A DNA stretch of 64,000 nucleotides, from positions 6,696,001 to 6,760,000 of the forward strand of contig NW_027248940.1 of NCBI RefSeq assembly GCF_036711975.1, in the 5' to 3' direction. The notes under the pieces are model-generated. The model was given only the letters and a program-made list of their open reading frames with translations. It made no database searches and was not told the DNA's origin. The stretch comes from Onthophagus taurus. Lineage: Eukaryota; Arthropoda; Insecta; Coleoptera; Scarabaeidae. Positions 2 through 42,964 of the stretch are shown here, piece by piece. The position numbers and the translations under genes are program-made. How positions within the stretch are numbered: position 1 is the first letter of the stretch; each line of letters begins with the position of its first letter.

Positions 2-3000
2 GGTTTGTATTTTTTACAATCAAAGGAAGACTGTGAAATAAAATCATTCAATACGAAAAATAAGGTAGTATCATTAGCGTCGGATCTGTATAAAATATAT
101 AAGGAATTTATTGATGAAATTTCATCAAAAATGTCAGAATTCCAGGAACGAGATTCAGGTAAGCGTAATGTGACATAATATACCTATATATTATAAAATA
201 AATGTTTCAATATTTTATTTAGGATGGACTTTAATGCAAATTCTCTATATGGAGTTAAATTTAAACAAATATAATCCTATCAGAGCATCTAATTACATCG
301 ATCTACCATCACAAATAAAAGCAAAGCGTGCTGTGATAAATATACAAAACGCGGATGATGCATGTTTTGCATGGGCTGTAACATCCGCACTACATGAACC
401 GAACGGTTTACCACAGAGGACATCTTCGTATCCGAATTACCTAGACTGCGGCTTAGACTATTCAAATATTGTTTTTCCAGTTAAATTACGAGATATACCT
501 GTATTTGAAAAGCAGAACAAACTATCTATTAATGTATATGGAATAAATGAGTATTTTAAAGACGGTGTTATGAATTATGACATAATTACAATGTATATAT
601 GTCGACAAAAAGAAGAAAGACATATAAATTTATTATTGGTTACAAATGATTCCGGGAATAGTCACTATTGTTGGATAAAAAATCTGTCTCGATTACTATC
701 ATCGCAAGCATCGCAGAATGGTCATGAAAAGTATATTTGCGACGGATGCTTGGTATTCTTTACGTCAGAAAATAAACTTATCCGTCATCAAAGTGACGAT
801 TGCAGCAAGGTAAGGGCAATTTTACCAACAACAAATTTGAAAATAAATAAATATGGAAATGAAGAAAAGGAAAATATACTACAGTTCGAAAATTTTGAAC
901 GACAATTAAAAATACCGTTCGTGGTGTATGCAGATTTTGAAGCATTACAGAAACCGATCGCCGATGCGGAAGCAACAGAACTTAACGATGATAATTCATA
1001 CTCCGTCAAATGTTTCAAACACGAACCTTATGCATTTGCATATTATATAAAATGTTCATATGACGAATCATTGTCGAAGTTTGAAATATATCGCGGATGT
1101 AATGCTGCTCAAATTTTCATGAGCAAGTTGGAACATGACGTTCTGAATATATACAAAAATTATTTAAGCCAACCAAAAGAAATGCTCCCATTACCACCTA
1201 TTGATAGATTAATACATGAGATGCAGGATATCTGTCACATTTGTTCGCACAAAATAAAAGAAGGTAATAAAGTGTGCGATCATGATCACCTAACTGGGTT
1301 GTATAGAGGACCCGCACATGCTGTATGTAACATCAATTATCAATTACCAAAGTTCATACCGATATTCTTTCACAATCTTTCGAACTACGATTGTCATATG
1401 TTTGTGAAAGATATGGCATTAAAAGAAGAAGACGTGGACGTTATAGCACAGAATAAAGAAAAGTATATATCATTTTCGAAAAAAATTATCGTAGGAGAAA
1501 ACATTGACAGCAAGGGAAAGCTAAGGCGGGTTCATATGAAATTGAGATTTGTGGATTCATTTAGGTTTATGGCTTTATCGCTAGAGAAGTTGGGTTCATT
1601 TTTGGAAGACAACCAATGCGTTCAAATCAGAAAATATTTTAGGAACGAAGAACAGTTTCGACTTATACGTCAGAAAGGAGTTTTTCCGTATTCCTTTGTG
1701 GATTCATTCGAAAAGCTGAATCTTACCGCTCTGCCAGATCGAAGTAGTTTTTACAATACTTTATGCGACGATAGTATAACCGAAGAAAATTATTGTCGTG
1801 CACAAACGGTGTGGAACTTATTTAACTGTCGCACTTTAGGCGAATATAGCGACATTTATTTAACGTCTGACGTTTTACTTTTGGCGGACGTATTTGAGAA
1901 TTTCCGAACCATCTCGATGAAGTATTACTCTTTAGATCCATGTCATTACTTCACAGCGCCGGGCTTCGGTTGGGATGCATTATTACGAATGACAGGGGTA
2001 AAATTAGAATTATTAACGGACATAGACATGTTACACTTCTTTAAAAATGGTATTCGCGGTGGATTAAGTATGTGCACTAAACGCAGTGCGAAGGCTAACA
2101 ATAAATTAATGATGGAATTTGATGAAACCAAAGACCCATCTTATATTTTGTATCTCGACGCTACGAATTTGTATGGACACGCAATGAGACGAAAATTACC
2201 GACGGGGGGATTTCGATGGCTATCAGATGAAGAGATTCAAAAGTTAGATATTTACAATACGGAAGACGATTCCGAAAAGGGTTACGTGTTCGAGGTAGAT
2301 TTAGAGTATCCGGAAGCAATACATGATGAACACAACGATTTGCCATTTTGTCCAGAACGGATTGTACCCCCAGGTTCAAAAAATGCAAAGTTAATAGCAA
2401 ATTTGGAAAATAAAACAAAATACATCATTCATTACGTGAATCTAAAGCAGTGTATCAAGTTCGGATTGAAACTAACGAAGATTTACAGAGTATTAGAATT
2501 TAAACAATCCAACTGGATGCGGAGCTACATCGATTTCAATTCCGATAAACGTGCGAAAGCTAAGAATGAATTTGAAAAAAATCATTACAAAGCAATGAAT
2601 AACATCGTATACGGTAAGACAATGGAAAATGTGGAAAAGCGAGTGGATATAAGACTAGTTACCCACTGGGAATGTCGTCATAAGAAACCGGGCGTGGAAG
2701 CCCTAATAGCTAAACCAAATTTTAAATCTTCGAAAATATTTTGCGATAATTTGATAGCCGTTCAATTGAACGTCGCGGAAGTTCGTTATTGCAAACCGCT
2801 GTATGTGGGTTTCAGTATATTAGAGCTTTCGAAAACCGTAATGTACAGCTTCTTCTATGATTACTTAAAACTTAAATATGGAAATAACATAACACTTTTA
2901 TACACCGATACTGATTCCCTAATCCTAGAAATTACTACTCCCAATGTATATGAGGATATAAAAGAAAATATTGAATTTTTTGACACGTCCAATTATCCGT

Positions 3001-3395
3001 TAGAGAATATACACAATATACCTCGCGGTCGATCTGTGTTGGGAAGAATGAAAGATGAATATCCAAACAGGTGCATAACGTCATTTGTTGGAACAGGAGC
3101 TAAGGCGTACTGCATCACCTTGTTGAATGATAATGTAAAGAAGGCTAAAGGAGTAAAGAAATATGTTATAGATAAACATTTAAGCGTGACCGATTATAAA
3201 CGTGTGGTTGAATGTGGCGGATCGGTTCATAAAAAAATGTACATTTTTAAGTCAGAATTTCATACTATGTATACCGAATTAAAGAATAAAATTGCTCTTT
3301 CATCGTGCGATGATAAACGATACATATTACCGAACGGATGTAATACTTTGGCGTGGGGTCATTGGTTGATAAAAAGATTGAATGCGAATAAATGA
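2..3395 (+). CDS. PolB: Protein-primed family B DNA polymerase, 5' partial, spliced (join 2..158, 223..3395)
   Basis: Replicates the element by protein priming. Seen in order: a C2H2-like finger (CDGC...H...C near 735-810), exonuclease motif DFE (about 935), an endonuclease-VII-like Zn motif (CxxC, DHDHLTG, H..CN, 1230-1330), Exo II N..YD (about 1385), Exo III Y..SD (about 1850), polymerase motif A DATNLYG (about 2160), motif B with NNIVYG (about 2600) and motif C YTDTDS (about 2900). The frame before the 64-bp intron matches the region just upstream of FQER.SGW in the second PolB copy (25962-29471), which has no intron there. The 234 ATG is therefore internal and the true start is left of the window. 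All catalytic motifs are present and no stop is seen. Confidence 0.93.
159..222 (+). other. Intron in PolB (64 bp, GTAAGC...TTTAG)
   Basis: A good donor (CAG|GTAAGC) and a T-rich acceptor (TATTTAG) flank 64 bp containing in-frame stops. Removing it joins two frames whose protein sequence runs continuously in the uninterrupted PolB copy at 25962-29471. Confidence 0.85.
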
Positions 3396-3498: not shown

Positions 3499-4434
3499 TT
3501 AAAGAACGTTAGTTTTTGAGATCCAAGAATTATGAGACGGACCTAATCCTAACCATTTCACAAACACTTGATTTCCTTTTCGCCGTAGCACTTTTTCCAC
3601 CAAGTAGACGTCAGGATATTTAACTTTTTGTAATTCCTCTCGATAAAAACCACCCATAATTTTTTCATTGGATGCATCTTTGAGCAGATATGTTGTTGGG
3701 AAAGTATTACGAACAGAATGTATTGTAAACACTTCGTTAGACCAATTGGGAGTATAGTTTTTGGTGAAGGCGTGTCGATGCTTGCTCACTCTGACGTGAT
3801 CACCGACATTAAATTTTTTGGTATAAGGATCGACAATTTTTATGTAATTATATACAGTTTTTAACAGTGTCGATGCGTTTCTGTTATTTACCTCGCTAGG
3901 TTTCATTCCTATCGTCCTGTGAACTTGGTTGTTATAATCCAGAATTAATTTGGGAAGCAATTCCAACCAACGATAGTTACCTTGCATACTAAATTCTTTC
4001 CACATTTTTTCTTTTATTGTTCTATTAAACCGTTCAACAATAGAACTCTTTAAATTGGAAAATGAACTGTAGTGATTGATGTGATATCGTGACATGAGCT
4101 TTTTAAAATCCTCATTGTAAAATTCTTTTCCGTTATCCGTTTGCAGATTCTTCGGTATGTTTTTCCGCTTTTCCGATAGAATTGTTTCCATAGCTCGCGT
4201 AACTTCTTTGCCAGTTTTGTTTTTTAGTGGTACAGCCCATCCATACTTTGAGAAAGCATTAATAACTGTTAGAATATATTTAAAATTACCATTTGCTTTT
4301 GAATAAGGTATCATCTCCACTAAATCAGCTTGAAATAAGTCCGTTAAACCTTTTATAATAACACGTCTGCGTTTATACTTTTTCCTCGCGGACGCGTGCA
4401 ACTCGTTTACGACGGACCTTTTAATATCGCTCAT
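3499..4434 (-). CDS. INT: Polinton integrase (retroviral-type, chromo-like tail)
   Basis: 311-aa DDE integrase that would insert the linear element DNA. Seen: first catalytic Asp in FQADLVEMIP (about residue 35), second in TDNGKEF (about 100), Glu in VERFNRT (about 137), then a C-terminal chromodomain-like segment ending VFVKWLGLGPSHNSW (about 280-305). Length is usual for Polinton integrases. Its ATG overlaps the stop of the upstream 141-aa gene by 4 nt (ATGA), suggesting one transcript with reinitiation. It converges on PolB with about 100 bp between the stops. Frame intact. Two damaged homologues occur at 29880 and 40444. Confidence 0.93.
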   Translation of the reverse strand: MSDIKRSVVNELHASARKKYKRRRVIIKGLTDLFQADLVEMIPYSKANGNFKYILTVINAFSKYGWAVPLKNKTGKEVTRAMETILSEKRKNIPKNLQTDNGKEFYNEDFKKLMSRYHINHYSSFSNLKSSIVERFNRTIKEKMWKEFSMQGNYRWLELLPKLILDYNNQVHRTIGMKPSEVNNRNASTLLKTVYNYIKIVDPYTKKFNVGDHVRVSKHRHAFTKNYTPNWSNEVFTIHSVRNTFPTTYLLKDASNEKIMGGFYREELQKVKYPDVYLVEKVLRRKGNQVFVKWLGLGPSHNSWISKTNVL

Positions 4435-6140: not shown

Positions 6141-6893
6141 TTAAACTTCAATGAATTTATCAAAACCCTTACGGTAACGTCCCTTAGATACACTACAATC
6201 TAAATCAATAACTAGGATGCCGTGTCTATTCTCCCAACAAGCATCGCTAATTTCCTTTAGCCGATGAAACTCCATATCGCTCATTATGTGATCTTCAAAT
6301 ACGTGTTTTAAATTTGTTAAGTCTTGTTTAAATAACACCAAAAAGTTACAATTATCGCGAACTAATTGTTTTGGAATTGCACTATAACTTTGACAAATTA
6401 GAAAACAATCAATGTTTTTATGTCGACCATACGAAAAAAATTCCTTAATGACATTTTGACCTGTACAGGAAACATCGTCAAATACGACTACCGAATATTC
6501 TTTCGCATCTTCCGGTCGAATGAACTCGTCTATATTAGAAAATTCATAGTAACCGCAATCTTTTATAGGTTCAATTAAACGTCTTAAAAAATCGTACTTA
6601 TTTTGGTATAACGAATTAGAGCATAAGTACAAGTTTAGGAAGCGCAACCCATTACGTGCAACTAAAAGCGATAACATAGCATTTGTTTTTCCGACACCTG
6701 AGGGTCCTACAATTAAACCTCGCTTACATTTTCCACCAAATAAATTGCTGTGTCTTGTAAAGTGTTCTTCGACCGAACCATTACTAAAATTTACTATAGG
6801 CAGTGTTAGAAGTTGCGGTAAACATTTTAATTTCTCGTCGATCATGATTCTCGTACTAAATGAATTGGATAAGACTGAATGAAAATATAGCAA
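6141..6893 (-). CDS. ATPase: Packaging ATPase (FtsK/HerA-type)
   Basis: 250-aa predicted genome-packaging motor. Seen: Walker A GPSGVGKT (about residue 62-69), Walker B VVVFDD (about 135-140), a downstream arginine-containing GRHKNIDCF segment and the conserved ICQSY strand. This matches the A32/FtsK-HerA family of Polintons and related viruses. The first ATG may not be the used one: the homologue at 43333-44021 starts close to the second Met (MIDEKL here). Frame intact. Confidence 0.9.
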   Translation of the reverse strand: MLYFHSVLSNSFSTRIMIDEKLKCLPQLLTLPIVNFSNGSVEEHFTRHSNLFGGKCKRGLIVGPSGVGKTNAMLSLLVARNGLRFLNLYLCSNSLYQNKYDFLRRLIEPIKDCGYYEFSNIDEFIRPEDAKEYSVVVFDDVSCTGQNVIKEFFSYGRHKNIDCFLICQSYSAIPKQLVRDNCNFLVLFKQDLTNLKHVFEDHIMSDMEFHRLKEISDACWENRHGILVIDLDCSVSKGRYRKGFDKFIEV

Positions 6894-9591: not shown

Positions 9592-10035
9592 CTAAACCAT
9601 ACATAAAGAACAATCCTTTCTTGCCGATGGTGGACCATCAATATGCGTTTCCCAATGAGGCAAATTATAATGTTCAAAACAGGGCAGCTTGCTTTGTAAT
9701 CGCTCATCGTTTCTATACTTCAACGGTAATTTAAACCAAACCGCCGCCAAATCTAATGGCTTTACTTTATTGATATAATAATCGATTGGTAAATAACATA
9801 ATTCGTAGTTTTTAATATTCGCAAAAGATAAATCAGATTCGTATCTTTCCATAATATCCCACACTTTATTAATTATAAAAGTTGAAAGTCCCAATCTGGT
9901 AACTAACCGCCAAAGACGTTCCATCTTGAACTGCTCTACCGCTACTACCCGTCTGCCTTTCTCAATTCGTTTACATATAGTTATAGATGTCTGAATACGT
10001 ATGAAAATAAATAAAAAACATTCGATAAGGAGCAC
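9592..10035 (-). CDS. Unrecognised hypothetical protein (start uncertain)
   Basis: 147-codon open frame; the first 35 codons overlap the end of the upstream 159-aa gene and look non-coding. A more natural start is MERLWRLVTRLGL, giving about 110 aa. The rest reads as a compact globular domain (WDIMERYESDL, CYLPIDYYI, WFKLPLKYR), ending with a Cys-containing tail. It may be a downstream cistron or a spliced exon of the gene at 9981-10460; an acceptor-like TATTCAG lies at its 5' side, but no in-phase donor was found. Function unknown. Confidence 0.4.
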   Translation of the reverse strand: MLLIECFLFIFIRIQTSITICKRIEKGRRVVAVEQFKMERLWRLVTRLGLSTFIINKVWDIMERYESDLSFANIKNYELCYLPIDYYINKVKPLDLAAVWFKLPLKYRNDERLQSKLPCFEHYNLPHWETHIDGPPSARKDCSLCMV

Positions 10036-10460
10036 ATACTTGGTCTCTTTTTATGATAGGGACACATCGGCGCACCAACCTCCAATTTGCATTCATTTTC
10101 CGGCAATTCTTTTACCGGTATTGTTAAAATTCTTCTTAAAAATGTAGCTTTCTCACGTCCTTTTACGTACGCTACTTTTGTCGAACGACACAAATAATAA
10201 ACGATCTCATCGAAACGAGACGTAGGAACAAACCCGTCGTTCCAATCAATACAATGATGATGACTCATTAACCAATTCGCCGTATTGCGAAATTTGGTAG
10301 ATAGTGAAGAAAAGCTTCGACTAGGTTGAAACACGTAATGACTTATACAATGATTACTGTCGTAAGAAGCCAGTTCCTTTGGGATAAATTCTTCATCGTT
10401 TATCGTGAAACCTTGAATGTCCAAAATAATAAAATCCCTTTGAAAAACCATAATATCCAT
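9981..10460 (-). CDS. Conserved RNase H-fold-like hypothetical protein
   Basis: 159 aa. The layout resembles a family of uncharacterised proteins in invertebrate mobile and viral DNA: an N-terminal strand FIILDIQGF with an acidic residue, PKEL at about residue 28, a WL..HHCIDW segment, AYVKGREK at about 97-104, and a Cys/His-rich end (CPYHKKR..MCSL.NV). DxxGF followed by a late KG.EK suggests a DEDD-type 3'-5' exonuclease or RNase H fold; that is pattern-based and unproven. No partner copy is seen in the other Polintons of this window. Confidence 0.5.
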   Translation of the reverse strand: MDIMVFQRDFIILDIQGFTINDEEFIPKELASYDSNHCISHYVFQPSRSFSSLSTKFRNTANWLMSHHHCIDWNDGFVPTSRFDEIVYYLCRSTKVAYVKGREKATFLRRILTIPVKELPENECKLEVGAPMCPYHKKRPSMCSLSNVFYLFSYVFRHL

Positions 10461-10533: not shown

Positions 10534-11793
10534 CTATATTAATTGCTTAACCATTTTCGTAAGAGGCGAATACACAAATGCTCTGTCATGCAGAATTAAT
10601 GCGTAAGCTGTCGTACCTTCCGGAATTGGATTTTTCGTTGAATACTCGATTTTTATTTCTACTCCGCTTTTATGTGTTGCTTCCTGTTGATACGTGCAAT
10701 CGATTCCAATTAACGGCGCGTAAGTTTTAAATTCTTCCGGTGAAAACAAAGGTTCGCTTTCTTGATAGTAGTATGCTTGCTGAAATCTTGAATACATATC
10801 ATACAAAATCGCATAGTGATTGTTATCAAAATCCACATTCAAATTATCGTACGGAAAACGTTCTCCATTCAAGAAAACGGTTACGTTCGTTAAGTTTATA
10901 TTATCAAATAATGCCATGTTTCCTTTAAATATACCCTTTCGATTTGTTTGAAATCCGATGATTATAAATCTAGGCGTTTCCAATTGTGGAGCAGTTTTGA
11001 CGGCCCAAGATTGCTTCGTAGTTTGAGGTAATTGAGGGTACTCGTGTATTTCCCACGATCGAAAAGGAACGTGAATGTCTACGTTTCTTTCTGATAGTTT
11101 TGTTAATGCCAACTGTTCGCGTAATCCCACCGCCACGTGAGGAACTCTCCATATAATTTTATTAATGATCAATTTCAATTTTTCGTCGTTCGGAGCGGCT
11201 GCTGGTTGAAAGATGACGTCCGTATCATCGTGTCCGCGAATTAGCACAAGTTCCTGTCGAACGTTCATCATGATCTTTCTGAAATCTTCTGCGAATCCTA
11301 GCAACGTTTTTAGCGGAACGCTAAGACCGAAATTTCCATTTTTATCTAAAGCCTTTGAAACACCCGCTATATCATCTTTCCAAGGTTTTATGTGCCAACC
11401 GGCGTTCTCTAATTTCACCACCTCGTTCTGCGTAGATGAGAAATAACCCTTCATGCATGAGCTTATACCGACGTTCCGCACACCATCAACATGTACTCCG
11501 TTAATAAGATATCGAATATCGCTAAACATAAATGCAACGGGATTGTTAACCAATTGCCCCGTTGCGCTGGCATCTTTTGTTATACTTCCGTCCGCGGCTA
11601 ACTTACGAACGCTACCCTCGACGTATAGATAACTCTCGCTCGGTAAAGTATAATTATCTATTTCCGGAATTGAAATTCTAATTTCGTCATTGTTATCGAA
11701 CGTGGTCGATCCAAACGGTTGATGCGAATGGAATTCATAACTTACGATAGAGTGATCTGTTTTTATCTTATCCGTTACTTTTAAAATGTCCAT
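10534..11793 (-). CDS. MCP: Major capsid protein (hexon-like)
   Basis: 419 aa. Assigned by size, beta-rich composition and synteny: it is the last gene of a penton - small ORF - MCP block, and a collinear homologue (60224-61420, 398 aa) ends the same block in Polinton-3. Shared landmarks are N-terminal MDILKV/MSILNV, DEIRI, FGFAEDF/LGFAEDY, FRSWEIHEYP versus FRSFDLHEYP, and C-terminal ILHDRAF/ILHDRVF. Polinton MCPs are double jelly-roll proteins; the fold cannot be confirmed by eye. Its ATG overlaps the preceding stop (TAATG). Confidence 0.75.
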   Translation of the reverse strand: MDILKVTDKIKTDHSIVSYEFHSHQPFGSTTFDNNDEIRISIPEIDNYTLPSESYLYVEGSVRKLAADGSITKDASATGQLVNNPVAFMFSDIRYLINGVHVDGVRNVGISSCMKGYFSSTQNEVVKLENAGWHIKPWKDDIAGVSKALDKNGNFGLSVPLKTLLGFAEDFRKIMMNVRQELVLIRGHDDTDVIFQPAAAPNDEKLKLIINKIIWRVPHVAVGLREQLALTKLSERNVDIHVPFRSWEIHEYPQLPQTTKQSWAVKTAPQLETPRFIIIGFQTNRKGIFKGNMALFDNINLTNVTVFLNGERFPYDNLNVDFDNNHYAILYDMYSRFQQAYYYQESEPLFSPEEFKTYAPLIGIDCTYQQEATHKSGVEIKIEYSTKNPIPEGTTAYALILHDRAFVYSPLTKMVKQLI

Positions 11794-12769: not shown

Positions 12770-13150
12770 CTAATAGGTTCTTTTATTACTTAGAAACTTC
12801 AGACACAACTGTCCGCAATTTTGATCTATTTCTCTTTGATATCGACAGTAATTATACTTTACTTGACCACCCCTACCGTCTGACAGCAAATATTGTTCAA
12901 TTTCTAATGGCGGTCTTAAATCACCGTAACTGTCGAAATAGTATATGTCTTTGTCGTCTTTCTTATAGGCGACCCAATGAGTCCCTCGTCCTTTCAAGTT
13001 ATCCAAGTTAACAATACCTCTTTCCTTCTTTTTAATCTTACTCGGGAGATTGTCTCTCATAAATATACCCCGAAAATGTGGAATTTTTAGTACTTTCGCA
13101 AACTTTTCCAACTCGACGTTAGTTAACGCACGACGAGGTATTCGAACTAG
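12770..13150 (-). CDS. PRO: Adenain-type cysteine protease, predicted -1 frameshift product
   Basis: Capsid maturation protease of the adenovirus (C5) type. Seen: catalytic His in GTHWVAY, an acidic residue in FDSYGD, then the nucleophile region QNCGQLC. The open frame has no ATG before FRGIFM, inside the domain. It runs without a stop back to CTA at 13150, immediately behind the heptamer A AAA AAC at the end of the PLA2 gene. The likeliest expression is therefore a -1 ribosomal frameshift from that gene, yielding a PLA2-protease fusion. The homologue in Polinton-3 has its own ATG (44689). Alternative: a non-AUG start at TTG 13111 or splicing. Confidence 0.8.
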   Translation of the reverse strand, partial: LVRIPRRALTNVELEKFAKVLKIPHFRGIFMRDNLPSKIKKKERGIVNLDNLKGRGTHWVAYKKDDKDIYYFDSYGDLRPPLEIEQYLLSDGRGGQVKYNYCRYQREIDQNCGQLCLKFLSNKRTY

Positions 13151-14064
13151 TTTTTTGAACTAGTGGTTATACCGCAACCTTTCTTATAGGGCTTATTGAA
13201 GTAACCTGTGCCGCCAACATTATTCCCCTTTCCTTCAATAAACAAACCGCAACCTTTCTTATATGGTTTTATATAAAATCCGCTACCTACGGCCTTTGCT
13301 TCCATAGCCTTGTTATGTCTTCGTTCTTCATCTAATTGCTCTCTAGCTGTTTTCGCGTTGTTTATAGTTCTTGCAATAGCGGCAGCACCACCGCCGATAC
13401 TACCTAGGGCACCTAAAGCTGCGAACAGGGGAATTAAAGGTAAAAATCCTCCCGTTTTCGGAATTCGAATAACTCGACCTCTAGGTTCGGAAATTCTTTT
13501 TCTTATCTTTTTCAAAGCTCCGTATGCCGCTTTAACGTTTGTCAACAAATTCTTAGCACCTGATCTCGATATTGCGTTGCGAGCGAATCGAAGTGCATCT
13601 ACAAAAGATATAGCTCCACCACGCTTTACACGCGTTCGGACTTTTTTTAAAGGTCGTCGACCCGTACGATTTCTTTTTCTACCTACGCCCATACCGACCG
13701 CTACTTTTGCTTTCATTAAGGCGGCAACTGCGGACGATGCCACTTTTTCTCCAAGAGTAGACTCTTTATTTCGTATTCGTTCTTTCGCTGCTTTATATAA
13801 TGCTCTGTCTGCGTCGTGTCTAAATTTTAAATTTGAACTGACCGTATATGCTATATCGTGTTTCTTACACGCTTCGTCTAATGGATTCACGCCTCGATCT
13901 CCTCTCGATAATCTCTTTTCCAACTTGGTACCCGGTCCACAAAAATTATATCCTGGCAAATGAAGTTCTATCGGAAGTTTATCTATCAACTTGTTAAAAA
14001 ATCCTCGACCAATTCGTTTGCCTGTCAAACGATAACTGTTACGATTAGGTTCTAACAAATTCAT
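13147..14064 (-). CDS. Parvovirus-type PLA2 domain fused to core/pVI-like tail
   Basis: 305 aa. Residues about 34-75 hold the viral PLA2 signature: LPGYNFCGPGT (Ca loop), then CKKHDIAY with the catalytic His-Asp. This activity helps non-enveloped particles cross endosomal membranes in parvoviruses. A basic stretch (KVRTRVKRGG, about 140) is followed by a hydrophobic Gly/Ala segment (PLIPLFAALGALGSIGGGAAAI, about 208-229) and two copies of the motif YIKPYKKGCG/YFNKPYKKGCG near the C-terminus. This layout recalls adenovirus membrane-lytic or core proteins. In Polinton-3 the two halves are separate genes on opposite strands (42965-43336 and 44238-44684). Intact. Confidence 0.85.
   Translation of the reverse strand: MNLLEPNRNSYRLTGKRIGRGFFNKLIDKLPIELHLPGYNFCGPGTKLEKRLSRGDRGVNPLDEACKKHDIAYTVSSNLKFRHDADRALYKAAKERIRNKESTLGEKVASSAVAALMKAKVAVGMGVGRKRNRTGRRPLKKVRTRVKRGGAISFVDALRFARNAISRSGAKNLLTNVKAAYGALKKIRKRISEPRGRVIRIPKTGGFLPLIPLFAALGALGSIGGGAAAIARTINNAKTAREQLDEERRHNKAMEAKAVGSGFYIKPYKKGCGLFIEGKGNNVGGTGYFNKPYKKGCGITTSSKN
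13150..13156 (-). promoter_or_regulatory. Predicted -1 ribosomal frameshift site (A AAA AAC)
   Basis: In the PLA2 frame the codons read TCA AAA AAC TAG, so the heptamer A AAA AAC is in exact slippery phase directly before the stop. The -1 frame enters the protease ORF. Downstream, CTCGTCGT can pair with ACGTCGAG (one mismatch), a possible stimulator 12 nt after the heptamer. A 7-bp inverted repeat (ACTAGTT/AACTAGT) also spans the site. Confidence 0.65.
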
Positions 14065-14279: not shown

Positions 14280-14504
14280 TTACTCTACAATGCTAAAACG
14301 TTCTTGATATATATTTAATCTATAATCTACATCTAAATATTTTTCTAATAACTTATTTACGTTTCTTATCCTAGTCTTAAATCTAATTCCGTCCAACATC
14401 TTTTCTTCCCAGTCACTTATCCTTGATTGTCTGTAAGCAAACGTCCAAGTGTGCATTCGGTACACTCTATTTTTCGATTCGCAAAACGTCACTTTTTTTT
14501 CCAT
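14280..14504 (-). CDS. GADD34/PPP1R15-like protein (PP1-eIF2alpha phosphatase recruiter)
   Basis: 74 aa from the ATG at 14504; a GTG-started extension of three codons is unlikely. Seen: a PP1-binding KVTF at residues 4-7, an aromatic/hydrophobic linker with W20 and FAYRQSR, then W32-E33, D38, R41-F42 and R45-I46. KVxF followed about 25 residues later by W-E, D, R-F and R-I is the conserved C-terminal core of the cellular PPP1R15 family and of viral mimics. Those proteins bring PP1 to phosphorylated eIF2alpha and undo translational arrest. Nothing else is in the protein, so it is a minimal core. It starts 10 nt after the stop of the 299-aa gene. The functional claim is inference from motif order. 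Confidence 0.7.
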   Translation of the reverse strand: MEKKVTFCESKNRVYRMHTWTFAYRQSRISDWEEKMLDGIRFKTRIRNVNKLLEKYLDVDYRLNIYQERFSIVE

Positions 14505-14514
14505 TTTATTCACT

Positions 14515-15479
14515 TCACATCTTCATTAATGCGTGCAAATCTAAATCCAGTAATACCTTATCCATACCGTATACGAGCAGTTCTTTAGTTACGCACAAAT
14601 GTTCACTTGGTGCACCGTTTGAAGCAACCAATATATTCGATTTTATATCACCTTGCATTGTTGATACCACATCGATCACGCTATCGTAATAATTTTTATA
14701 TTCCATACACTTTAATACTTCTACCCTACTCGAAACTAAATCGCTAAGTTTCCACAATTCGTGTAACGAGTCGTAAGCCAGGTAAAATATTTCTGACCCC
14801 CTTTCCATTTTCAACACTTTTCGTACATTTTCTATCCATTGGCTGCTGCAGGTCACGCCGCTTACAACGAAATGTGGTGGTGCCGATAAATCACCAACAA
14901 AACTATTCATAATCAATTGTCTGCTATTAATCACATTTTTCCATTCGTCTTCGGTAAAAGTTATGCATTGTCCTTTTCCCATTAATCTTATAACCGGATC
15001 AAAATGTAGATTGGCAGACATGCCAACCGATATCCATTTCGTTCGACTTTTATTTAAATAATATGTACTCTCGGAGAATAATGGCGCTTGATTACCTTTT
15101 TGGAGATTATTTTTCACTGCCTCATTTAATACTACGTTACTTGTGAAAGGTAACTTTCCACAATTTTCTACATAATGTTGTTGATTGCTAGGAAATACGT
15201 ACTCCGCTAAGTCGGAAGCCAACAAATTAATTCCATCGAATACCACATCCTTTTTTCTTTGATTATCACTTCCTACCGACACATTTGTTGCAGTTGTCTC
15301 ATTACAATTACCCTCCATTTTGATGTTTCGGGCAGGTTTTTTATTTTCACCCTTTTCAAATGAATTTACAGCAGCTCTCTTAGTTGGACATTTGGGGTTC
15401 GGTCTGGTTGCCACTAAACATCAATATTATTGTTTACATTAGTACATTATCTACTTGTATTACATTTGAATTACTTACT
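14515..15479 (-). CDS. Unrecognised 299-aa protein; start codon made by splicing (exon 2 from 15413)
   Basis: No named family recognised. The N-terminus is polar and basic. From about residue 70 it is globular, with KWISVGMSANLHF, an IRLMGKGQCITFTEDEW segment (weakly like PC4-type single-strand-binding proteins, not convincing) and a helical end. The open frame has no usable ATG. A consensus intron (GTAAGT at 15478, branch-like TACTAAT, TTTAG ending at 15414) joins A at 15479 to TG at 15413, giving the ATG. No other ATG occurs in the inferred leader. It is the first gene from the right terminus. No copy is visible in the other Polintons here. Confidence 0.65.
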
Positions 15480-15614: not shown

Positions 15615-16348
15615 GCAATACATAAGGTTGCTGGTGGGGGGAGTAATATTTCACATCATTACCGAATATATCTATTATACATGTTCTAACACGTCATTAT
15701 ATCGTGAGACGTCAGACAAAACGCATGACAAATTTATTAAGAAGCTCTTAAAAAATATCTCGCAGGTGGATCATGACTCATCTACTAACAAGTTAGTTGA
15801 CCTCCTCCTCAAACCTGTCCTCCCAAAAAATTTGCCGATTCAAGAACCTCCTCGCATATTCTTAAATACCCGTACACCTTTACATAATAAAATAAAAAAT
15901 ATCTCGCAGGTAAGTTATGACTCACTTATTTGTATACCTACATATCTCAAAACCGTATACCTTTGTGTATAATAATAAATTAAGAGATATATCGAAAACA
16001 TTAACAGTTCATTGAGAAGCGTCGAAGGATAAACATAGTAATTGTTTTCATCTAGGTAAACAGGTTACATATAAAGATAAATTTTTAATAACATAACCTA
16101 AATAAAGATACATTTTTAATAAAGATAAATTTTTAATAATTTCGTCAAAATAACATGACCTTCTCAAGTTAATTGACCTCCTCCTCTCTTCATCGAATCT
16201 CCTCCGACCCTCAAAAGAATCGCCGATTCAAGAACCTCCTCTCCTCATCGAACCTCCTCTGACCCCCAAAAAATTTGCCGATTCAAGAACCTCCTCCTAG
16301 AACGCAGGTTCGAGGAGGAGGTTCTTGAATCGGCGAATCTATACTACT
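15615..16348. repeat. Polinton-1 terminal region with subrepeats
   Basis: No gene. It holds three related copies of a unit GACCTCCTCCTC...AAAATTTGCCGATTCAAGAACCTCCTC (about 15795-15858, 16170-16240 and 16240-16310), repeats of AAAAATATCTCGCAGGT (near 15750 and 15895) and AAAGATAAATTTTTAATAA (16073-16140). Part of this (16156-16348) reappears inverted at 63557-63695. It is presumably the terminal inverted repeat; the partner end is outside the window. Confidence 0.75.
16277..16334. repeat. Near-terminal hairpin of Polinton-1
   Basis: A perfect 22-bp inverted repeat (GCCGATTCAAGAACCTCCTCCT and its complement) around a 14-nt centre that itself contains GAAC/GTTC. It lies 14 bp inside the element end. 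Confidence 0.95.
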
Positions 16349-17592
16349 TGCATTAGTTGAATTTTGGTGACGCCATTACGGCATTTTGGAAATTAGTAGC
16401 TTTTCTCCGATTTTCGGGATTTTACACAGTTTCTTTGCTGTTGGAAAACGAAGTTTTCGTTATTCCGATTACGGATTTATCCGGATATATATCGTATTTG
16501 ATTATAAATTTTTTTTTTGGACCTAAGCCTCGTTAGATCTTGAGGTGAGTTGTTTTTTTTGCATCTCGGAACATTTCTTTTTTTTCTTCTCTAATTCGTT
16601 TTTTTTTCCTTCTATTCCTTTTAGGCTTTTTAGTTACGGTTATCGTAACATTCAATCGTTTCCAATTTTTCTTCGCCCATCAATTTTTTTTTTTTGCTGG
16701 GAGCATTTTGGAACCAAGGAACCCATCGCCATTTTGACGTTTTCGAAACCTTTCCTAACTCCACGCGACGCCACGGGAATAAAGGAAAAGATCTGTTATC
16801 AAGGTTGGGATAAGGTCAGATATTTTATTTTAATGAAATTCGTCGGCGGAAATTTCATTTTTAAAAATTCAAGGGAAACAAAGAATTGGAATAAGAATTT
16901 TGCGTTTCTTTTTTTGGATATCGTTTTTTTTTATTAATTTTTTTTTTGTGTATTAAGCGCTTCACGCGTTTTTCTTTTTTTTATAATTTATAGTTACAAT
17001 TTTTTTTTGTGCTTCCAACTCATTATTTTTTTTATTTGTAATGTTAAATTTTATTGGCCCGTTTTTTTTTTATTTTCTCCGTTGATTTTGATCTTTTTTA
17101 AAACGCTTTCGGAGAAAACTTGAGCTCAGGGTACTCGGGAACGTACGCGAGTTCAATTAAGATTTTTTTTTTTTGATTTGAGTTTTTCTTGTTTAATTTG
17201 TTTTTTTTTGGCTAATAATTTTTTTTATAATTTTTTTTTGTTGTTATTGGAACACTCATTTTTTTTTTATTCAAATATTTACCTTTTCCTTTTTATATAT
17301 ATATTTTTTTTTGCTTTATTTAATAAATTTATTTCTTTATTGCAACTCATATTCGCTTCTTGATATTTTTTTTTGTCTTGTTTTGTTGACTTGTTGTCAA
17401 TGTATTATTTGTTACAACTTTCCTTTCCACCACACTTCTCAGTTAGTGGACATCGTGGAAGAAACTGAGTGGCGCCTTTATAAATCGAACCACCCATCTT
17501 CACTGAACAGGCCGTGGATCCGCGATTGTTGTTTTAAAGTTGTAAACATTTGTTTTGGTCAGTTTTGTTGTTGTGTTGTAAAAGGCGTTACA
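16349..17592 (+). repeat. 5' LTR of gypsy-1, truncated at its 5' side
   Basis: Matches 22885-24125 of the 3' LTR from TGCATTAGTTG to GGCGTTACA. ORFs inside are T-rich and non-coding. Confidence 0.95.
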
Positions 17593-17597
17593 AATTT

Positions 17598-17615
17598 TGG
17601 CGCCCAACGTGGGGC
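17598..17615 (+). promoter_or_regulatory. Primer-binding site, tRNA-Lys type
   Basis: TGGCGCCCAACGTGGGGC, 5 nt after the LTR. It is complementary to the 3' end of metazoan tRNA-Lys(CTT). Confidence 0.85.
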
Positions 17616-22443: not shown

Positions 22444-22462
22444 AGGCGGGAAAGAGGGGGAT
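22444..22462 (+). promoter_or_regulatory. Polypurine tract of gypsy-1
   Basis: AGGCGGGAAAGAGGGGGA-like purine run directly before the 3' LTR start TGTTACG. Confidence 0.85.
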
Positions 22463-24125
22463 TGTTACGTGCCAAATTTTCATTTACCTTTGTTTTGTTT
22501 TGTGTTGTTACTTTGTGTGCGGAGGTGAAATATGAGTTGCATTTCGCGTTTAGGGTTTTGAATTTATTATTTTGATTTATTGTTTTTTTATTTTAATTAC
22601 ACTTTATTTCAGTGACGATCGTAACGGAGTTTCCTTTAATCCTTTTTTTTTTTTTTTTCCTGAACTAAGTTTTCCTATTATTTAATTCTTTTCTTTAATT
22701 TCTTATTTTAAACTTGTTATTTTTCGTAATCTTTCCTTCTTTTATATTCTTCCGTCTTTTCTTTTCTTTGAGCGTTCCGAGTTTGCGTTAAGGATCTGAT
22801 AAGGTGGGGGTTGTTAGATATCGGAAACGGATAATTGACATCTTGATTATTATTGGTCCATCGACGATACGTTGAAGAACTGTGTGCATTAGTTGAATTT
22901 TGGTGACGCCATTACGGCATTTTGGAAATTAGTAGCTTTTCTCCGATTTTCGGGATTTTACACAGTTTCTTTGCTGTTGGAAAACGAAGTTTTCGTTATT
23001 CCGATTACGGATTTATCCGGATATATATCGTATTTGATTATAAATTTTTTTTTTGGACCTAAGCCTCGTTAGATCTTGAGGTGAGTTGTTTTTTTTGCAT
23101 CTCGGAACATTTCTTTTTTTTCTTCTCTAATTCGTTTTTTTTTCCTTCTATTCCTTTTAGGCTTTTTAGTTACGGTTATCGTAACATTCAATCGTTTCCA
23201 ATTTTTCTTCGCCCATCAATTTTTTTTTTTTGCTGGGAGCATTTTGGAACCAAGGAACCCATCGCCATTTTGACGTTTTCGAAACCTTTCCTAACTCCAC
23301 GCGACGCCACGGGAATAAAGGAAAAGATCTGTTATCAAGGTTGGGATAAGGTCAGATATTTTATTTTAATGAAATTCGTCGGCGGAAATTTCATTTTTAA
23401 AAATTCAAGGGAAACAAAGAATTGGAATAAGAATTTTGCGTTTCTTTTTTTGGATATCGTTTTTTTTATTAATTTTTTTTTTGTGTATTAAGCGCTTCAC
23501 GCGTTTTTCTTTTTTTTATAATTTATAGTTACAATTTTTTTTGTGCTTCCAACTCATTATTTTTTTTATTTGTAATGTTAAATTTTATTGGCCCGTTTTT
23601 TTTTATTTTCTCCGTTGATTTTGATCTTTTTTAAAACGCTTTCGGAGAAAACTTGAGCTCAGGGTACTCGGGAACGTACGCGAGTTCAATTAAGATTTTT
23701 TTTTTTTGATTTGAGTTTTTCTTGTTTAATTTGTTTTTTTTGGCTAATAATTTTTTTTATAATTTTTTTTTGTTGTTATTGGAACACTCATTTTTTTTTT
23801 ATTCAAATATTTACCTTTTCCTTTTTATATATATATTTTTTTTTTGCTTTATTTAATAAATTTATTTCTTTATTGCAACTCATATTCGCTTCTTGATATT
23901 TTTTTTTGTCTTGTTTTGTTGACTTGTTGTCAATGTATTATTTGTTACAACTTTCCTTTCCACCACACTTCTCAGTTAGTGGTCATCGTGGAAGAAACTG
24001 AGTGGCGCCTTTATAAATCGAACCACCCATCTTCACTGAACAGGCCGTGGATCCGCGATTGTTGTTTTAAAGTTGTAAACATTTGTTTTGGTCAGTTTTG
24101 TTGTTGTGTTGTAAAAGGCGTTACA
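22463..24125 (+). repeat. 3' LTR of gypsy-1 (1663 bp)
   Basis: Starts TGTTACGTGCC and ends GGCGTTACA (TG...CA). Unusually long and T-rich. The first 422 bp have no counterpart in the window because the 5' LTR is interrupted. Confidence 0.95.
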
Positions 24126-25248
24126 ATGTTTAATTTAAATTTTTAATATATGTATTAACTTTAATTTTTTGTGATTTTCTCTTCCTCCTCCTCCTCCTAC
24201 CCTCAATCAGTAATAGAGAACTATTACTTATTTTAAGGTAAGTATTATTATTATTATTAATATTATTTCACGGGGGAGCAATTTCCGCTGATAAGCATAC
24301 AGCGTTGACGTCATCGTCGTCGTATTTGTCATCGCTCCACATCGTCATCTCTACTTGACCGTTAGGGTACTAGAGCGTTACCCCCTATCGTAGGGGGGAT
24401 GCTTGGGGTTGAAGGGGGTCATTAGGGCGCTAAGATGGGGTTGAAGGGGTTGAAGGGGCGTCGACCGATCCTTAAGGATGCTACAGTTGGCGCCACCGTC
24501 GACCGATCCTTCGATCCTTAAGGAGCAGGGGGAGCAACCTTCGATCCTTAAGGATGCTACAGGTGGCGTCACCGTCGACCGATCCTTCGATCCTTAAGGA
24601 GCAGGGGGAGCTGGTGAATGCTGCGCTCTGATTGGTTGACTCATTCAAATTTATTAGATAATGCTGCGCTCTGATTGGTTGAATTTAAAATGTGGGCGTG
24701 GCCACACCCTCGAAAGGGGGTAGTGGTGGGGATAAAAAGTACTTTTCAACCCTAATGTTAAATCTTATGGGATTTTGATTTAGAACGCACATAGCTATAC
24801 TACTCGCGCGGTTTACGTTTGACACGTTCGGTTTCTAAAACTGATTATGAGTTACGCGATACAATGCTTTCCTCGCCGGGCGGAAGTGTCAACTTACACA
24901 ATCGACGCGGCGCATCGCCAAGGTGGTGAAGTGCAATGCACCTCGCCGGCGAAGTGTAAAGTTACATAGCGGCTGCAAAAATGCTGAGCAATGGAATAAT
25001 TGACCTAAATGAAATGCTATATATAATTAATATTAAGGAAGTAAAAAAAATAATACAAATTATAAAATTGTTTTAATGCATTTTCATTAATAAAAATTAT
25101 GTACGTGAAAAAAAAATACATTTAAATAAAAGACGGAAAAGGTTTAAATAATACAATTTCATTTTCCCAATTAACCCAATTTAAATATATTGAAACATTT
25201 TAATATAAAAATTACAAACACATATGCATCTTGAAAGTTTATACACAA
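24126..25248. other. Non-coding spacer with tandem motifs; left flank of Polinton-2
   Basis: No gene seen. It contains CTCCTCCTCCT runs (24180-24200), an imperfect duplication of about 95 bp around CGACCGATCCTTCGATCCTTAAGG (24465-24612) and a repeated ATGCTGCGCTCTGATTGGTTGA (about 24616 and 24660). The segment 24683-24790 recurs inverted at about 37140-37240. The stretch 24930-25090 resembles 29650-29790, including GAGCAATRGAATAATT and AAGGAAGTAA. Confidence 0.6.
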
Positions 25249-29879: not shown

Positions 29880-30334
29880 CTAAACGATATTGTCTTTCGG
29901 TATCCAACTGTTATGGGATGAATCGAATCCTAACCACTTAACGAACACTTGATTCTTTCTTCTCTTTAACACTTTTTCAACAAGATACACATCAGGTTGT
30001 TTGGATCTTTGAAGTTCGAATTCATAAAAAGCTCCTTTAATAGGTTGTCCATTCATATCTTCTAATAAATAAGAAATTGGATTCGTAATTTGTGTTTTAA
30101 TTATTTTAAATAACTCAGTGGTCCAGTTGGGTAAATATTCCTTATCGAAGACATGCTTATGCTTGCTAATGCGAACTACATCTCCAACATTAAAGTTTCC
30201 CTTACCGGCAATTTTAATATGATTGTACACCGTATTGAGAGGTTTATTTTCTATAGATTTCGAATTTATTTGAAATGGTTTAATTTTCGTGGTTGAATGC
30301 TTTGAATTGTTATATTGAGTTGTAATAGCATAAT
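29880..30334 (-). pseudogene. INT: Polinton-2 integrase, C-terminal fragment
   Basis: About 150 codons aligned with the C-terminal half of the 3499-4434 integrase: a degenerate HSTT segment, FNVGDVVRISKHKHVF, and the chromo-like tail PDVYLVEKVLKRRKNQVFVKWLG. It ends abruptly where the 152-bp satellite starts; the catalytic core is missing. Confidence 0.88.
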
Positions 30335-32538
30335 ATCACGTTTTGGGCACATTTTGTTTTTTATCTCCAACATGCTCCAACATGTCATTTGGCGCCTGAA
30401 TATCACATATATGGTCGATAGAATTATCGGAACCAAAAGTGATAGAAAGTTCAAGCATGGCTCAGAACGGCGTATAACGTCATAATATCACGTTTTGGGA
30501 ACATTTTGTTTTTTATCTCCAACATGCTCCAATATGACATTTGGCGCCTGAATATCACAAGTATGGTCAACAGAATTATCGGAACCAAAATTGATAGAAA
30601 GTTCAAACATGGCTCAGAACGGCGTATAACGTCATAATATCACGTTTTGGGCACATTTTGTTTTTTATCTCCAACATGCTCCAATATGACATTTGGCGCG
30701 TGAATATAACAAATATGGTCAACAGGATTATCGGAACCAAAAGTGATAGAAATTTCAAACATGGCTCAGAACGGCGTATAACGTCATAATATCACGTTTT
30801 GGGAACATTTTGTTTTTTATCTCCAACATGCTCCAATATAACATTTGGCGCCTGAATATAACAAATATGGTCAACAGGATTATCGGAACCAAAAGTGATA
30901 GAAAGTTCAAACATGGCTCAGAACGGCGTATAACGTCATAATGTCACGTTTTGGGAACATTTTGTTTTTTATCTCCAACATGCTCCAATATGACATTTGG
31001 CCCCTGAATATCACATATATGGTTGACAGAATTATCGGAACCAAAAGTGATAGAAAGTTCAAACATGGCTCAGAACGGCGTATAACGTCATAATATCACG
31101 TTTTGGGCACATTTTGTTTTTTATCTCCAACATTCTCCAACATGTCATTTGGCGCCTGAATATCACATATATGGTCGAAAGAATTATCGGAAGCAAAAGT
31201 GATAGAAAGTTCAAACATAGCTCAGAACGGCGTATAACGTCATAATATCACGTTTTTGGCACATTTTGTTTTTTATCTCCAACATGCTCCAACATGTCAT
31301 TTGGCGCCTGAATATCACAAATATGGTCAACAGAATTATCGGAACCAAAAGTGATAGAAAGTTCAAACATGGCTCAGAACGGCGTATAACGTCATAATAT
31401 CATGTTTTGGCACATTTTGTTTTTTATCTCCAACATGCTCCAACATGTCCTTTGGCACCTGAATATCGCGTGTATAGTCGACAGAATTATCGGTTCCAAA
31501 AGTGATAGAAAGTTCAAACATGGCTCAGAACGGCGTATAACGTCATAATATCACGTTTTGGGCACATTTTGTTTTTTATCTCCAACATGCTCCAACATGT
31601 CATTTGGCGCCTGAATATAACAAATATGGTCAACAGGATTATCGGAACCAAAAGTGATAGAAAGTTCAAACATGGCTCAGAACGGCGTATAACGTCATAA
31701 TATCACGTTTTGGGAACATTTTGTTTTTTATCTCCAACATGCTCCAATATGACATTTGGCCCCTGAATATCACATATATGGTTGACAGAATTATCGGAAC
31801 CAAAAGTGATAGAAAGTTCAAACATGGCTCAGAACGGCGTATAACGTCATAATATCACGTTTTGGGCACATTTTGTTTTTTATCTCCAACATGCTCCAAC
31901 ATGTCATTTGGCGCCTGAATATCACATATATGGTCGAAAGAATTATCGGAAGCAAAAGTGATAGAAAGTTCAAACATAGCTCAGAACGGCGTATAACGTC
32001 ATAATATCACGTTTTTGGCACATTTTGTTTTTTATCTCCAACATGCTCCAACATGTCATTTGGCGCCTGAATATCACAAATATGGTCAACAGAATTATCG
32101 GAACCAAAAGTGATAGAAAGTTCAAACATGGCTCAGAACGGCGTATAACGTCATAATATCATGTTTTGGCACATTTTGTTTTTTATCTCCAACATGCTCC
32201 AACATGTCATTTGGCACCTGAATATCGCGTGTATAGTCGACAGAATTATCGGTTCCAAAAGTGATAGAAAGTTCAAACATGGCTCAGAACGGCGTATAAC
32301 GTCATAATATCACGTTTTGGGCACATTTTGTTTTTTATCTCCAACATGCTCCAACATGTCATTTGGCGCCTGAATATCACAAATATGGTCAACAGAATTA
32401 TCGGAACCAAAAGTGATAGAAAGTTCAAACATGGCTCAGAACGGCGTATAACGTCATAATATCACGTTTTGGGCACATTTTGCTTTTTATCTCCAGCATG
32501 CTCCAACATGTCATTTGGCGCCTGAATATCACATATAT
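30329..32538. repeat. 152-bp satellite array, about 14.5 units, with 5-unit higher-order structure
   Basis: Unit starts (CATAATATCACG) fall at 30329, 30481, 30633, 30785, 30937, 31089, 31241, 31393, 31544, 31696, 31848, 32000, 32152, 32303 and 32455. Variant units recur with a 759-bp offset (31089 and 31848, 31241 and 32000, 31393 and 32152). ORFs here are not credible. Confidence 0.97.
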
Positions 32539-32640
32539 GATAATTGTTTTTGGTTTTTCTTAACATTGTGTTGATTTAGATGAAAATACTTTTTTCTATA
32601 CTTTTTCAATGTTATATTTATTTAAGTTCTCTATTCAACA

Positions 32641-32669
32641 TGTTTCGAGGATCCAGTCCTCATCTTCAG
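32641..32669 (-). ncRNA. Hammerhead-ribozyme-like motif, left Penelope arm
   Basis: On the minus strand CTGAAGA, a GAGGA/TCCTC stem, then GAAAC. Hammerheads are known in Penelope termini. Here the sequence after the core reads ATGTTG and stem I is weak, so activity is doubtful. Confidence 0.35.
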
Positions 32670-33192
32670 GAAAATTCCTGTACATGAATACAAGATAATC
32701 AAATCAAAATTAAGTTTGAAATTCAAAACAGTGTGTAAAAGAAAAGAAAATTAAAATTATTTTTAGGTTATGTCTTAAAGAAAAATTAAAAATTATTGTG
32801 TCCTTATTTCTACTTACGTCAATTTTTGAATAAAAGATAACCATATCCCTCGGATTACAATTCAAAACTCTCACGACTAAACAATTAAAACAGAAATAAA
32901 CTATTAAAATTGAATCGGAAGATTCTGGAATTCATCGGCGTGTATTATGGAACCAGTTTTGGATGACGTATTATCGTTATGCTATATATAACAAAATCAA
33001 ACTTAAATTAAGATTAAAATCAAATACAATTGGCGACACTGAATTCGGATGGTTAAATGAATCAAATTTAAAAATTTTGTTTTAAAAACTTTCTTTAAAT
33101 TGGTGTTGGGTTTGTGATGAGTTGTGATGGGAAGTTTGTGAGTTTTGTGAATAGGATGGGAATAGTAGCCAAGGAACCAAAATATTGCAGAA

Positions 33193-33604
33193 TCAAGTCG
33201 CTACTTTATCTTGATACTCTCGTTTATTTTGGTGTTTAGTAGGTGTGAACGGTTGTTTTAGGAATGAATAAATTGGTCTATGGAAAGTTTGTACTTGTTC
33301 GTTAAGGCATACGGTATTGGGATTGTTAAATATAAATTTTTTAATCTCGTATCCTTCCAGTAATTCCATTAAATGTATTAATATTGTGGAGTATGTGTGC
33401 ATCATTGTTTTCATTGAATTCGTGGTCATGATTAAATATTAGGTGTTCACCAAAGTTAGAATTGTCTCTAGTTTTATGTTCTTTTATTCGTCTTTTTAGT
33501 GCTCTACCTGTCTCACCTATGTATGTTGCGTTGCAAGTTGTGCATTCCAATTTATATACTCCATTTTTGTCGAGTGTATTGAACGATTGTTTATTATTTA
33601 TCAA
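33193..33604 (-). pseudogene. GIY-YIG endonuclease domain of left Penelope arm, frameshifted
   Basis: Seen: GVYKLECTTCNATYIGETGR (GIY-YIG type) with RRIKEHK and FGEHLIFNHDH. The frame then shifts before the C-terminal EGYEIKKF...LNEQ segment (33429-33193). The junction to RT is also out of frame. The right arm has identical breaks. Confidence 0.85.
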
Positions 33605-33636
33605 GGAATTAGTTAAAGTGTTGTTCGTTTTGAAAG

Positions 33637-34528
33637 TTATATTAAGATCATATTTTGTAAAAATTTCTTTATTTTAGTAGTTAAATGTCCTGGGTATTGT
33701 ATTAAAGAACAATATGTAGGTTTATTTCTTTGATTACAGGGTATCAATGATGTAGTGTTTTGCAGGTGGCACTTTTGTTTTTGTTTGTCAATCATTTTGT
33801 CAATTAAGTTTTCTGGGAAATTACTGTTTCTTATTATCTGTTTGATAATGTTCAATTCCTTTTTTAAGCTTTCCGGTTTTAAATATGTATTAAAGGCTCT
33901 ATGTAAGTATGTTCTAATTGCTGCCATTTTATGAGTGTTTGAGTGAAATGAGTTATAGGGAATAATGGAGTCTGTTTGTGTGGGTTTTCTGTAAATGTTG
34001 TAATGTACGTCATTGTCTATTTTATATATTTCGACATCAAGAAAGTTTATTTTATTATTATTTTCAATTTCTGTGGTGAATTTTATGTTGGGGTGTAGTT
34101 TATTAAGGTATGAGTGCATATTTTCAGCTATGGAATGGTCTCGGGTATCAAATATTACTAAAATGTCGTCTACATATCGTTTCCATGTTATGATCTTGTT
34201 CCTAAAAGGGTTGATATTGTTCATTATATGGTCGTTTTCTAGTTTATTGAGGAAAATGTCAGCTATTAGTCCACTGAGGGGTGAACCCATTGGTAGACCT
34301 TCGTTGTACATATACATTTTATCATTAAACAGGCAAAAGTTTTGTTCGATGCATAGTTTGAACAAATTATATATTGTGTCTATTTCTCCTTTATCCTTTA
34401 GTTTAGTTTCCAATATGGTTCTGATAATTTCCAATGATTCTCCAGTAGGTATGTTAGTGTATAGATTGGTTATGTCATATGAAACTAGAAGGTAAGTTTC
34501 CTTTAACGTTAAGCTGTTAAGTTCTGAT
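33637..34528 (-). pseudogene. Penelope reverse transcriptase, left arm (5' truncated)
   Basis: Seen: GLPMGSPLSGLIADIFLN (motif B) and RYVDDILVIF (catalytic), then the thumb-like KINFLDVEIYK region. It lacks the N-terminal RT motifs; the copy stops at 34528 where the opposing copy begins. Stop at 33637 comes before the endonuclease, one base out of register. Confidence 0.88.
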
Positions 34529-35716: not shown

Positions 35717-35748
35717 CTTTCAAAACGAACAACACTTTAACTAATTCC

Positions 35749-36683: not shown

Positions 36684-36716
36684 CTGAAGATGAGGACTGG
36701 ATCCTCGAAACATGTC
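36684..36716 (+). ncRNA. Hammerhead-ribozyme-like motif, right Penelope arm
   Basis: CTGAAGA, one unpaired T, a GAGGA/TCCTC stem, GAAAC, then ATGTC, which could give a 2-bp stem III and a GUC cleavage triplet. Stem I pairing (TTTTC with GAATA) is short and mismatched. Confidence 0.4.
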
Positions 36717-38885: not shown

Positions 38886-39405
38886 AAAACAGTTCAATAA
38901 ATATGCCAACTTTCCGATTCGCAACGTAAAATCCGTAATTATTTTCATTTACTACAGAAATTGTGTAAAGTAAATGGATTGCTTATACTTATTTATTTTC
39001 TTAATTTTTCTTTGTGATTCAGTCATCTTGGCCATAAATCACATCACTCCGCTAGCCTGTTCGGAACTTTTACAACACTACAGAGCAGGTAAAACCTGGA
39101 TTGAATGCCTCGTGAACGTAGGTCGTTTCTAGTACAATTTTATGCCTCTACGAGCGGCTCTTTTCGCATTATATCTGAACAGAACTGTACATAAAAGAGC
39201 AAGAAGTGGACGGGAATGGTTAGAGGCGGTAATTGATAGACAACGATTTCCAAAGACGTATTAAAGAAATTGAACGAATTCTTAATAAAATATTGCGTGA
39301 AAAATTGTTAAAAATGAAAGAATAAATAAAACATAATAAAATGTATTGTTTTAATTACTTTAGTTTTAGTATAGAGTTGTATAAAACCTATTGTATAAAA
39401 CGTGT
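38886..39405. other. Unassigned region with one small ORF
   Basis: A 52-codon ORF at 38974-39132 begins with a signal-peptide-like hydrophobic stretch (CLYLFIFLIFLCDSVILA); the same strand shows further short open pieces in other frames to 39260. I cannot assign it. Nothing else seen. Confidence 0.35.
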
Positions 39406-42960: not shown

Positions 42961-42964
42961 GCAT

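Follow-up and report, generated by a model that had tools for sequence, protein, structure and literature searches.

Introduction

Whether animal Polintons are viruses or plain transposons is an open question in the field. Among the closest described systems, PPP1R15 proteins are represented in both animals and insect viruses. In PMC4394352, the conserved C-terminal core of PPP1R15 is reported to be enough on its own to attenuate the stress response in cells; when R658, W662, F672 or I676 of PPP1R15B is changed, actin activates the eIF2alpha phosphatase less well. The same paper describes a granulovirus PPP1R15 gene, coGV-gp036. Baculoviruses and entomopoxviruses carry PPP1R15 genes of lepidopteran origin, according to PMC4411684 and PMC5704228. 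A full-text literature search of partial coverage, which does not prove absence from print, returned no report of a PPP1R15-like gene in Polintons or adintoviruses. The main text of a vertebrate Maverick paper (PMC8097293) mentions no phosphatase, eIF2 or PPP1R15.

Genomic context of the ORF

The ORF described here lies in a window of 64,000 nucleotides from Onthophagus taurus, which is the whole stretch of DNA that was analysed. The initial annotation had assigned it to a Polinton. This membership is borne out by genes for a capsid protein, an integrase, an A32-like ATPase and a phospholipase domain, together with inverted ends of 600 bp. The following features were located in the window:

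234..3395, plus strand: 1053-aa ORF with an endonuclease VII domain (PF02945, E = 2.3e-5), which from its residues we take to be DNA polymerase B
3499..4434, minus strand: integrase (rve; PF00665, E = 4.4e-12)
6141..6845, minus strand: packaging ATPase, A32-like (PF04665, E = 9e-9)
9981..10460, minus strand: p159, homologue of the exonuclease-like domain of type B (sequence and structure comparison)
10534..11793, minus strand: major capsid protein, double jelly roll (PF21738, E = 1.2e-100)
13147..14064, minus strand: phospholipase-A2-like gene, presumably pVI-like, downstream of the PPP1R15-like ORF (PF08398, E = 1.2e-12)
14280..14504, minus strand: 74-codon ORF, minimal PPP1R15-like protein (P0001; type A, lineage F1; translation, Pfam, PDB and profile searches)
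14367..14423, minus strand: R28 to I46 of this ORF, R...W.{5}D..RF..RI segment (translation, alignment)
14484..14495, minus strand: KVTF, residues 4-7, predicted PP1 docking motif of the RVxF type (translation; role from PMC4394352)
14515..15318, minus strand: p267, 267-aa ORF immediately upstream, ending 10 nt ahead of the PPP1R15-like start codon (ORF list)
15750..16348, no strand: right terminal inverted repeat, pairing with C15:6694825-6695424
39172..39330, plus strand: decayed second PPP1R15-like copy (C2 form) with stops inside (genome search)

Pfam yielded no match for p159, none at E ≤ 10 for p267 and no polymerase match for the 1053-aa ORF, while the window capsid protein had no match among PDB sequences at E ≤ 0.1. 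A Polinton protease was matched weakly in Pfam (E = 0.15), under the cut-off. The left inverted repeat is located outside the window (C15:6694825-6695424) and aligns with window 15750-16348 over 604 columns at 94%. From this pairing, the length of the element is about 17.5 kb.

The stop of p267 and the start of the PPP1R15-like ORF are 10 nt apart (window 14504-14515), and in two other lineages an upstream stop and the start of the ORF overlap by 4 nt in an ATGA (L009 4888-4891, L011 4889-4892). The integrase and capsid ORFs of the window overlap their upstream ORFs by 4 and 1 nt, respectively. Coupled translation is possible at such overlaps and short gaps.

The window Polinton appears to sit inside the sequence of an LTR retrotransposon. 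The retrotransposon, Gypsy-type by eye, shows direct repeats at about 16349-17598 and at 22885-24131, and the left flank of the Polinton (L021 4396-4827) is 99.8% identical to window 22462-22893. Near the decayed C2 copy, at 40444-44021, lie pieces of the integrase, phospholipase and ATPase genes of another Polinton. Other repeats in the window are a tandem array built of 152-bp units, present at both 30190-32615 and 62402-63997, and an inverted repeat (32572-36781) with arms of 1955 bp, 99% complementary and 300 nt apart. Each arm contains nearly the same reverse-transcriptase-like ORF, named by eye.

Homology to PPP1R15

The minus strand of 14280-14504 translates into a protein of 74 residues; a plus-strand reading is ruled out by stops in frame 1. 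All residues listed in the initial annotation (KVTF 4-7, W20, W32-E33, D38, R41-F42 and R45-I46) are in place, and the strand, minus, is added here. The spacing of R28, W32, F42 and I46 (+4, +10, +4) is that of R658, W662, F672 and I676 in PPP1R15B. A signature regular expression (V.[FIWY], 15-32 residues, [WF].{5}D..RF..RI), composed after the protein was seen, matched once in the six frames of the window, at the 74-codon ORF, and never in 40 windows, each 64 kb long, simulated under a first-order Markov model. A chance motif is ruled out by this null together with the family profile matches to PPP1R15.

Taken alone, P0001 matches the Pfam family PF10488 (PP1c_bdg) with E = 0.0033 and 17.6 bits, which is under the curated cut-off of 26.1 bits. 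The similarity extends to position 228 of the 230-position profile, and DUF7825 (E = 0.046) is the sole other Pfam family listed. The only PDB sequences matched at E ≤ 10 are PPP1R15B, twice (0.099 and 0.3), and DP71L of African swine fever virus (ASFV; 0.4). A profile of the three intact lineages of the window type (P0001, L010, L009) matched PPP1R15B at 2.7e-5, DP71L at 5.8e-5 and PPP1R15A at 0.0018, and all five PDB sequences at E ≤ 10 were PPP1R15 or DP71L. With L011, L047, L038 and L049 added, a profile of seven proteins, all from the genome of the window, reached 9.1e-12 for PPP1R15B, 3.3e-10 for ASFV DP71L and 5.3e-9 for PPP1R15A; the first unrelated chain followed only at E = 0.71. The kinship to the PPP1R15 core claimed at the outset is upheld by these family profiles (2.7e-5; 9.1e-12). 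The lack of a significant profile match, which was named at the outset as refuting this kinship, applies only to the single protein against the curated Pfam cut-off and not to the family. Judged from these sequence comparisons, homology of the ORF family to the PPP1R15 core is close to certain.

Other members differ in how they score on their own. L011 (27.5 bits), L040 (26.9 bits) and L038 (26.4 bits) are above the PF10488 cut-off and L009 (21.3 bits), L010 (23.3 bits) and L039 (23.9 bits) below it, while no Pfam family was matched by the broken pieces L013 and L019.

V5, W32, D38, R41, F42, R45 and I46 are invariant in seven of seven aligned proteins. Beyond the motif, L57 and R62 are invariant in a four-sequence alignment. 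The PP1 docking motif varies between KVTF (P0001), KVRF (L009), KVKF (L011), CVKF (L047), RVKF (L038) and SVRF (L049). In F2 (L010), the commonest sister lineage among the matches listed, KVRI replaces KVxF. An arginine four residues before W32 occurs in the window type (A) only, another residue being present in the aligned types B and C. P0006, from another public record, has F at the position of W32. Hence, of the spacing that related Polintons had been expected to retain, W/D/RF/RI is kept in the seven aligned proteins and KVxF only in part.

In the protein database, P0001 matched only P0002, which is the window's own protein from residue 17. The L011 fusion protein matched P0003 and P0004, and the query A4 matched P0005, P0002 and P0006 at E ≤ 0.1. 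Searches of a viral contig collection gave eight pattern stretches for P0001, 37 for A1 and two for the window capsid protein, with no confirmed relative for any of the three queries. The structure model of P0001, computed from the lone sequence, is one long helix and is uninformative on the fold.

Relatives in the genome

The genome searched comprises 290.8 Mb in 33 contigs, and at least three architectures of the PPP1R15-like gene are present in it: a stand-alone gene beside the phospholipase-like gene, a gene fused to an exonuclease-like domain, and a version of 64 residues located close to the ends of elements.

The stand-alone form (type A) consists of the lineages F1 (window), F2 (L010) and F3 (L009), with L013 and L019 as broken copies. 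At least 150 rows matched P0001. At least 47 copies, the window copy included, are stop-free and match all 74 residues at 100%, and at least 58 stop-free copies belong to sister lineage F2, all with one E-value (6.0e-17) and 53% identity. The 47 identical copies point to recent spread, so that their intactness alone shows little about selection. Neighbouring genes were inspected at seven of 12 fetched loci, six of type A plus L011, which belongs to type B. Among the six, the ORF is flanked by p267 as well as by the phospholipase gene in five (L009, L010, L012, L014, L019), and at L013 p267 alone was found. The phospholipase-like gene gave 129 scored matches among 355 candidates. When these were compared with the at least 150 ORF rows listed, 125 had a listed ORF no more than 1.5 kb upstream in the same orientation and four did not. 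The position of the gene beside the phospholipase-like gene is conserved. In the F2 locus L010, positions 2865-3206 hold a truncated type B piece, in which the end of a PPP1R15 core runs into the exonuclease-like domain; exchange between Polinton lineages is possible.

Type B is represented by the 222-aa protein of L011, in which a PPP1R15 core (27.5 bits) is joined to a homologue of p159. The capsid protein of this element is 36% identical to that of the window. In a PF10488 scan of the genome, six of 88 rows were above the cut-off, all of them type B, one passing only with its neighbours in frame (26.2 bits). The best PDB match of the p159 domain is an exonuclease domain (E = 2.7e-3, TM 0.37/0.45), and no PDB structure matched at E = 0.001 or better. 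Against a viral library, the domain matched an unnamed entry (9e-11), ichnovirus proteins (4e-10 and 5e-10) and a protein of Drosophila-associated adintovirus 2 (2e-9). The model of the fusion is of modest confidence, having a mean pLDDT of 62, with less than 50 in the PPP1R15 core part. In these structure comparisons, the p159 domain resembles 3'-5' exonucleases.

Type C is a 64-residue ORF near a polymerase-like gene in L038, L042 and L043. L038 scores 26.4 bits, above the PF10488 cut-off, and the near-identical L039 23.9 bits; none of the 88 rows of the genome scan above the cut-off is type C. Among the 78 rows of a genome search, 12 are full-length copies of type C and eleven are partial, covering 25-26 codons. 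Of the partial copies, eight are inverted relative to a full-length copy 12-32 kb away, one is placed likewise at 14.5 kb from a broken copy, and two have no such partner. From these inverted partial copies, the inner edge of the terminal repeat probably falls within the gene. The C2 form accounts for 36 full-length rows of the same search, 34 of them stop-free. Nine inverted pairs about 8.6 kb apart were observed, two of them with one partial copy (e.g. C4:2564152 and C4:2572741), which probably places C2 within terminal repeats. In L053 C2 adjoins an integrase gene; in L052 its neighbour is a capsid gene. The nine inverted pairs suggest short Polintons that carry genes for integrase, ATPase and capsid and perhaps lack one for a polymerase, to judge from spacing only. 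A type D copy, interrupted by a stop, is located between capsid and p159 in L041.

Selection and origin

Between lineages of type A, pN/pS was 0.41 for F1/F2 (0.43 with slightly different ends), 0.39 for F1/F3 and 0.48 for F2/F3, the last two unchanged with those other ends. The values were 0.48 for B1/B2 and 0.45 for C1/C2. In none of the five lineage pairs did more than 0.1% of 2000 bootstraps give a pN/pS of 1 or more. Because synonymous sites approach saturation, the true ratios probably lie below these values. The protein is under constraint between lineages.

The initial annotation had proposed that the Polinton captured a host PPP1R15 core, which is a candidate origin. No host PPP1R15 exon was detected among the 88 candidates at E ≤ 10 of the PF10488 scan, which would miss such an exon if an intron interrupted the core or if the sequence had diverged strongly. 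In our judgement, a tree of proteins of 60 residues would not separate single from repeated capture. By eye, the 88 rows coincide with the listed types, and those whose neighbours were checked, a minority, are Polinton-borne. The Polinton-borne types give well over a hundred rows, compared to no detected host exon.

Function

The ORF probably encodes a minimal PPP1R15 regulatory subunit, an accessory gene of the Polinton that would direct PP1 to phosphorylated eIF2alpha and so sustain translation. As judged from the PPP1R15 core and its viral counterparts, KVxF would dock on the PP1 catalytic subunit. The R/W...D..RF..RI segment would bring PP1 to phosphorylated eIF2alpha, helped by G-actin in the manner of PPP1R15A/B. 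The presumed benefit, put in the initial annotation as countering PKR/PERK-like arrest, is that protein synthesis would continue during capsid production and replication of the element.

Dephosphorylation of eIF2alpha through recruitment of PP1 is the likeliest function on present comparisons, but three other explanations have to be weighed. An adaptor derived from PPP1R15 might still hold PP1 (or actin) but aim it at another substrate, such as one of the element's own capsid or replication proteins. Such retargeting would fit the differences in the arginine site and the linker among architectures, the KVRI of F2 and the type B fusion to an exonuclease-like domain; the fusion suggests that the role has changed in one lineage or more. 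However, what is kept in seven of seven proteins is not the PP1 dock alone but also the W, F and I at which changes weaken actin-stimulated dephosphorylation of eIF2alpha by PPP1R15B, and we regard retargeting as unlikely. Less probable still is a decayed or non-expressed leftover without present function. Some copies are indeed broken (L013, L019, L041 and window 39172-39330), but pN/pS is well under 1 between lineages, and at least 47 full-length identical and at least 58 stop-free sister copies exist.

Least probable of all, and already disfavoured, is convergence, by which KVxF and a WE..RF-like helix would have arisen in an unrelated small helical protein. In its favour, RVxF belongs to the short linear motifs, and P0001 is short with marginal single-sequence scores. 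Against this, the similarity passes beyond the motif to L57, R62 and position 228 of 230 in the Pfam profile, and three architectures agree, with profile E-values down to 9e-12.

A broader reading, which we put forward tentatively and hold to be somewhat doubtful, is that PPP1R15 is a near-standard accessory of Polintons in this genome. It would have been kept or acquired several times at different sites of the element and in one lineage fused to an exonuclease-like domain. If so, a multiplying Polinton would resemble an infection and set off eIF2alpha kinases, and the fusion of PPP1R15 to an exonuclease would be a two-pronged counter-defence in one protein. This fusion architecture is not named in the parts of the literature examined.

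Comparison with known systems

A conserved gene that in viruses undoes translational shut-off would be indirect evidence that Polintons meet an antiviral response during protein production. Another group of DNA elements would also join the known carriers of PPP1R15. With Polinton/Maverick elements and adintoviruses, the window element shares the double jelly-roll capsid, integrase, ATPase, phospholipase domain and inverted ends, and a protein of Drosophila-associated adintovirus 2 has a p159-like fold.

The core of PPP1R15A/GADD34 and PPP1R15B/CReP (PF10488) has in common with the ORF the KVxF motif, the W...D..RF..RI spacing and C-terminal similarity. Mammalian PPP1R15A/B are described as having a long N-terminal part with a membrane-interaction domain and, in PPP1R15A, repeats, which the 74-residue ORF lacks. 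The PPP1R15 genes of baculoviruses and entomopoxviruses likewise reside in large insect DNA viruses; these are other virus groups, likened here by description. ASFV DP71L (PDB 9nb9 chain B) and ICP34.5 of HSV are likewise pared-down viral versions of the core. P0001 alone has three PDB matches at E ≤ 10, one of which is DP71L; ICP34.5 is likened by description only. In contrast to both, the gene described here is carried by a Polinton and is present in many chromosomal copies.
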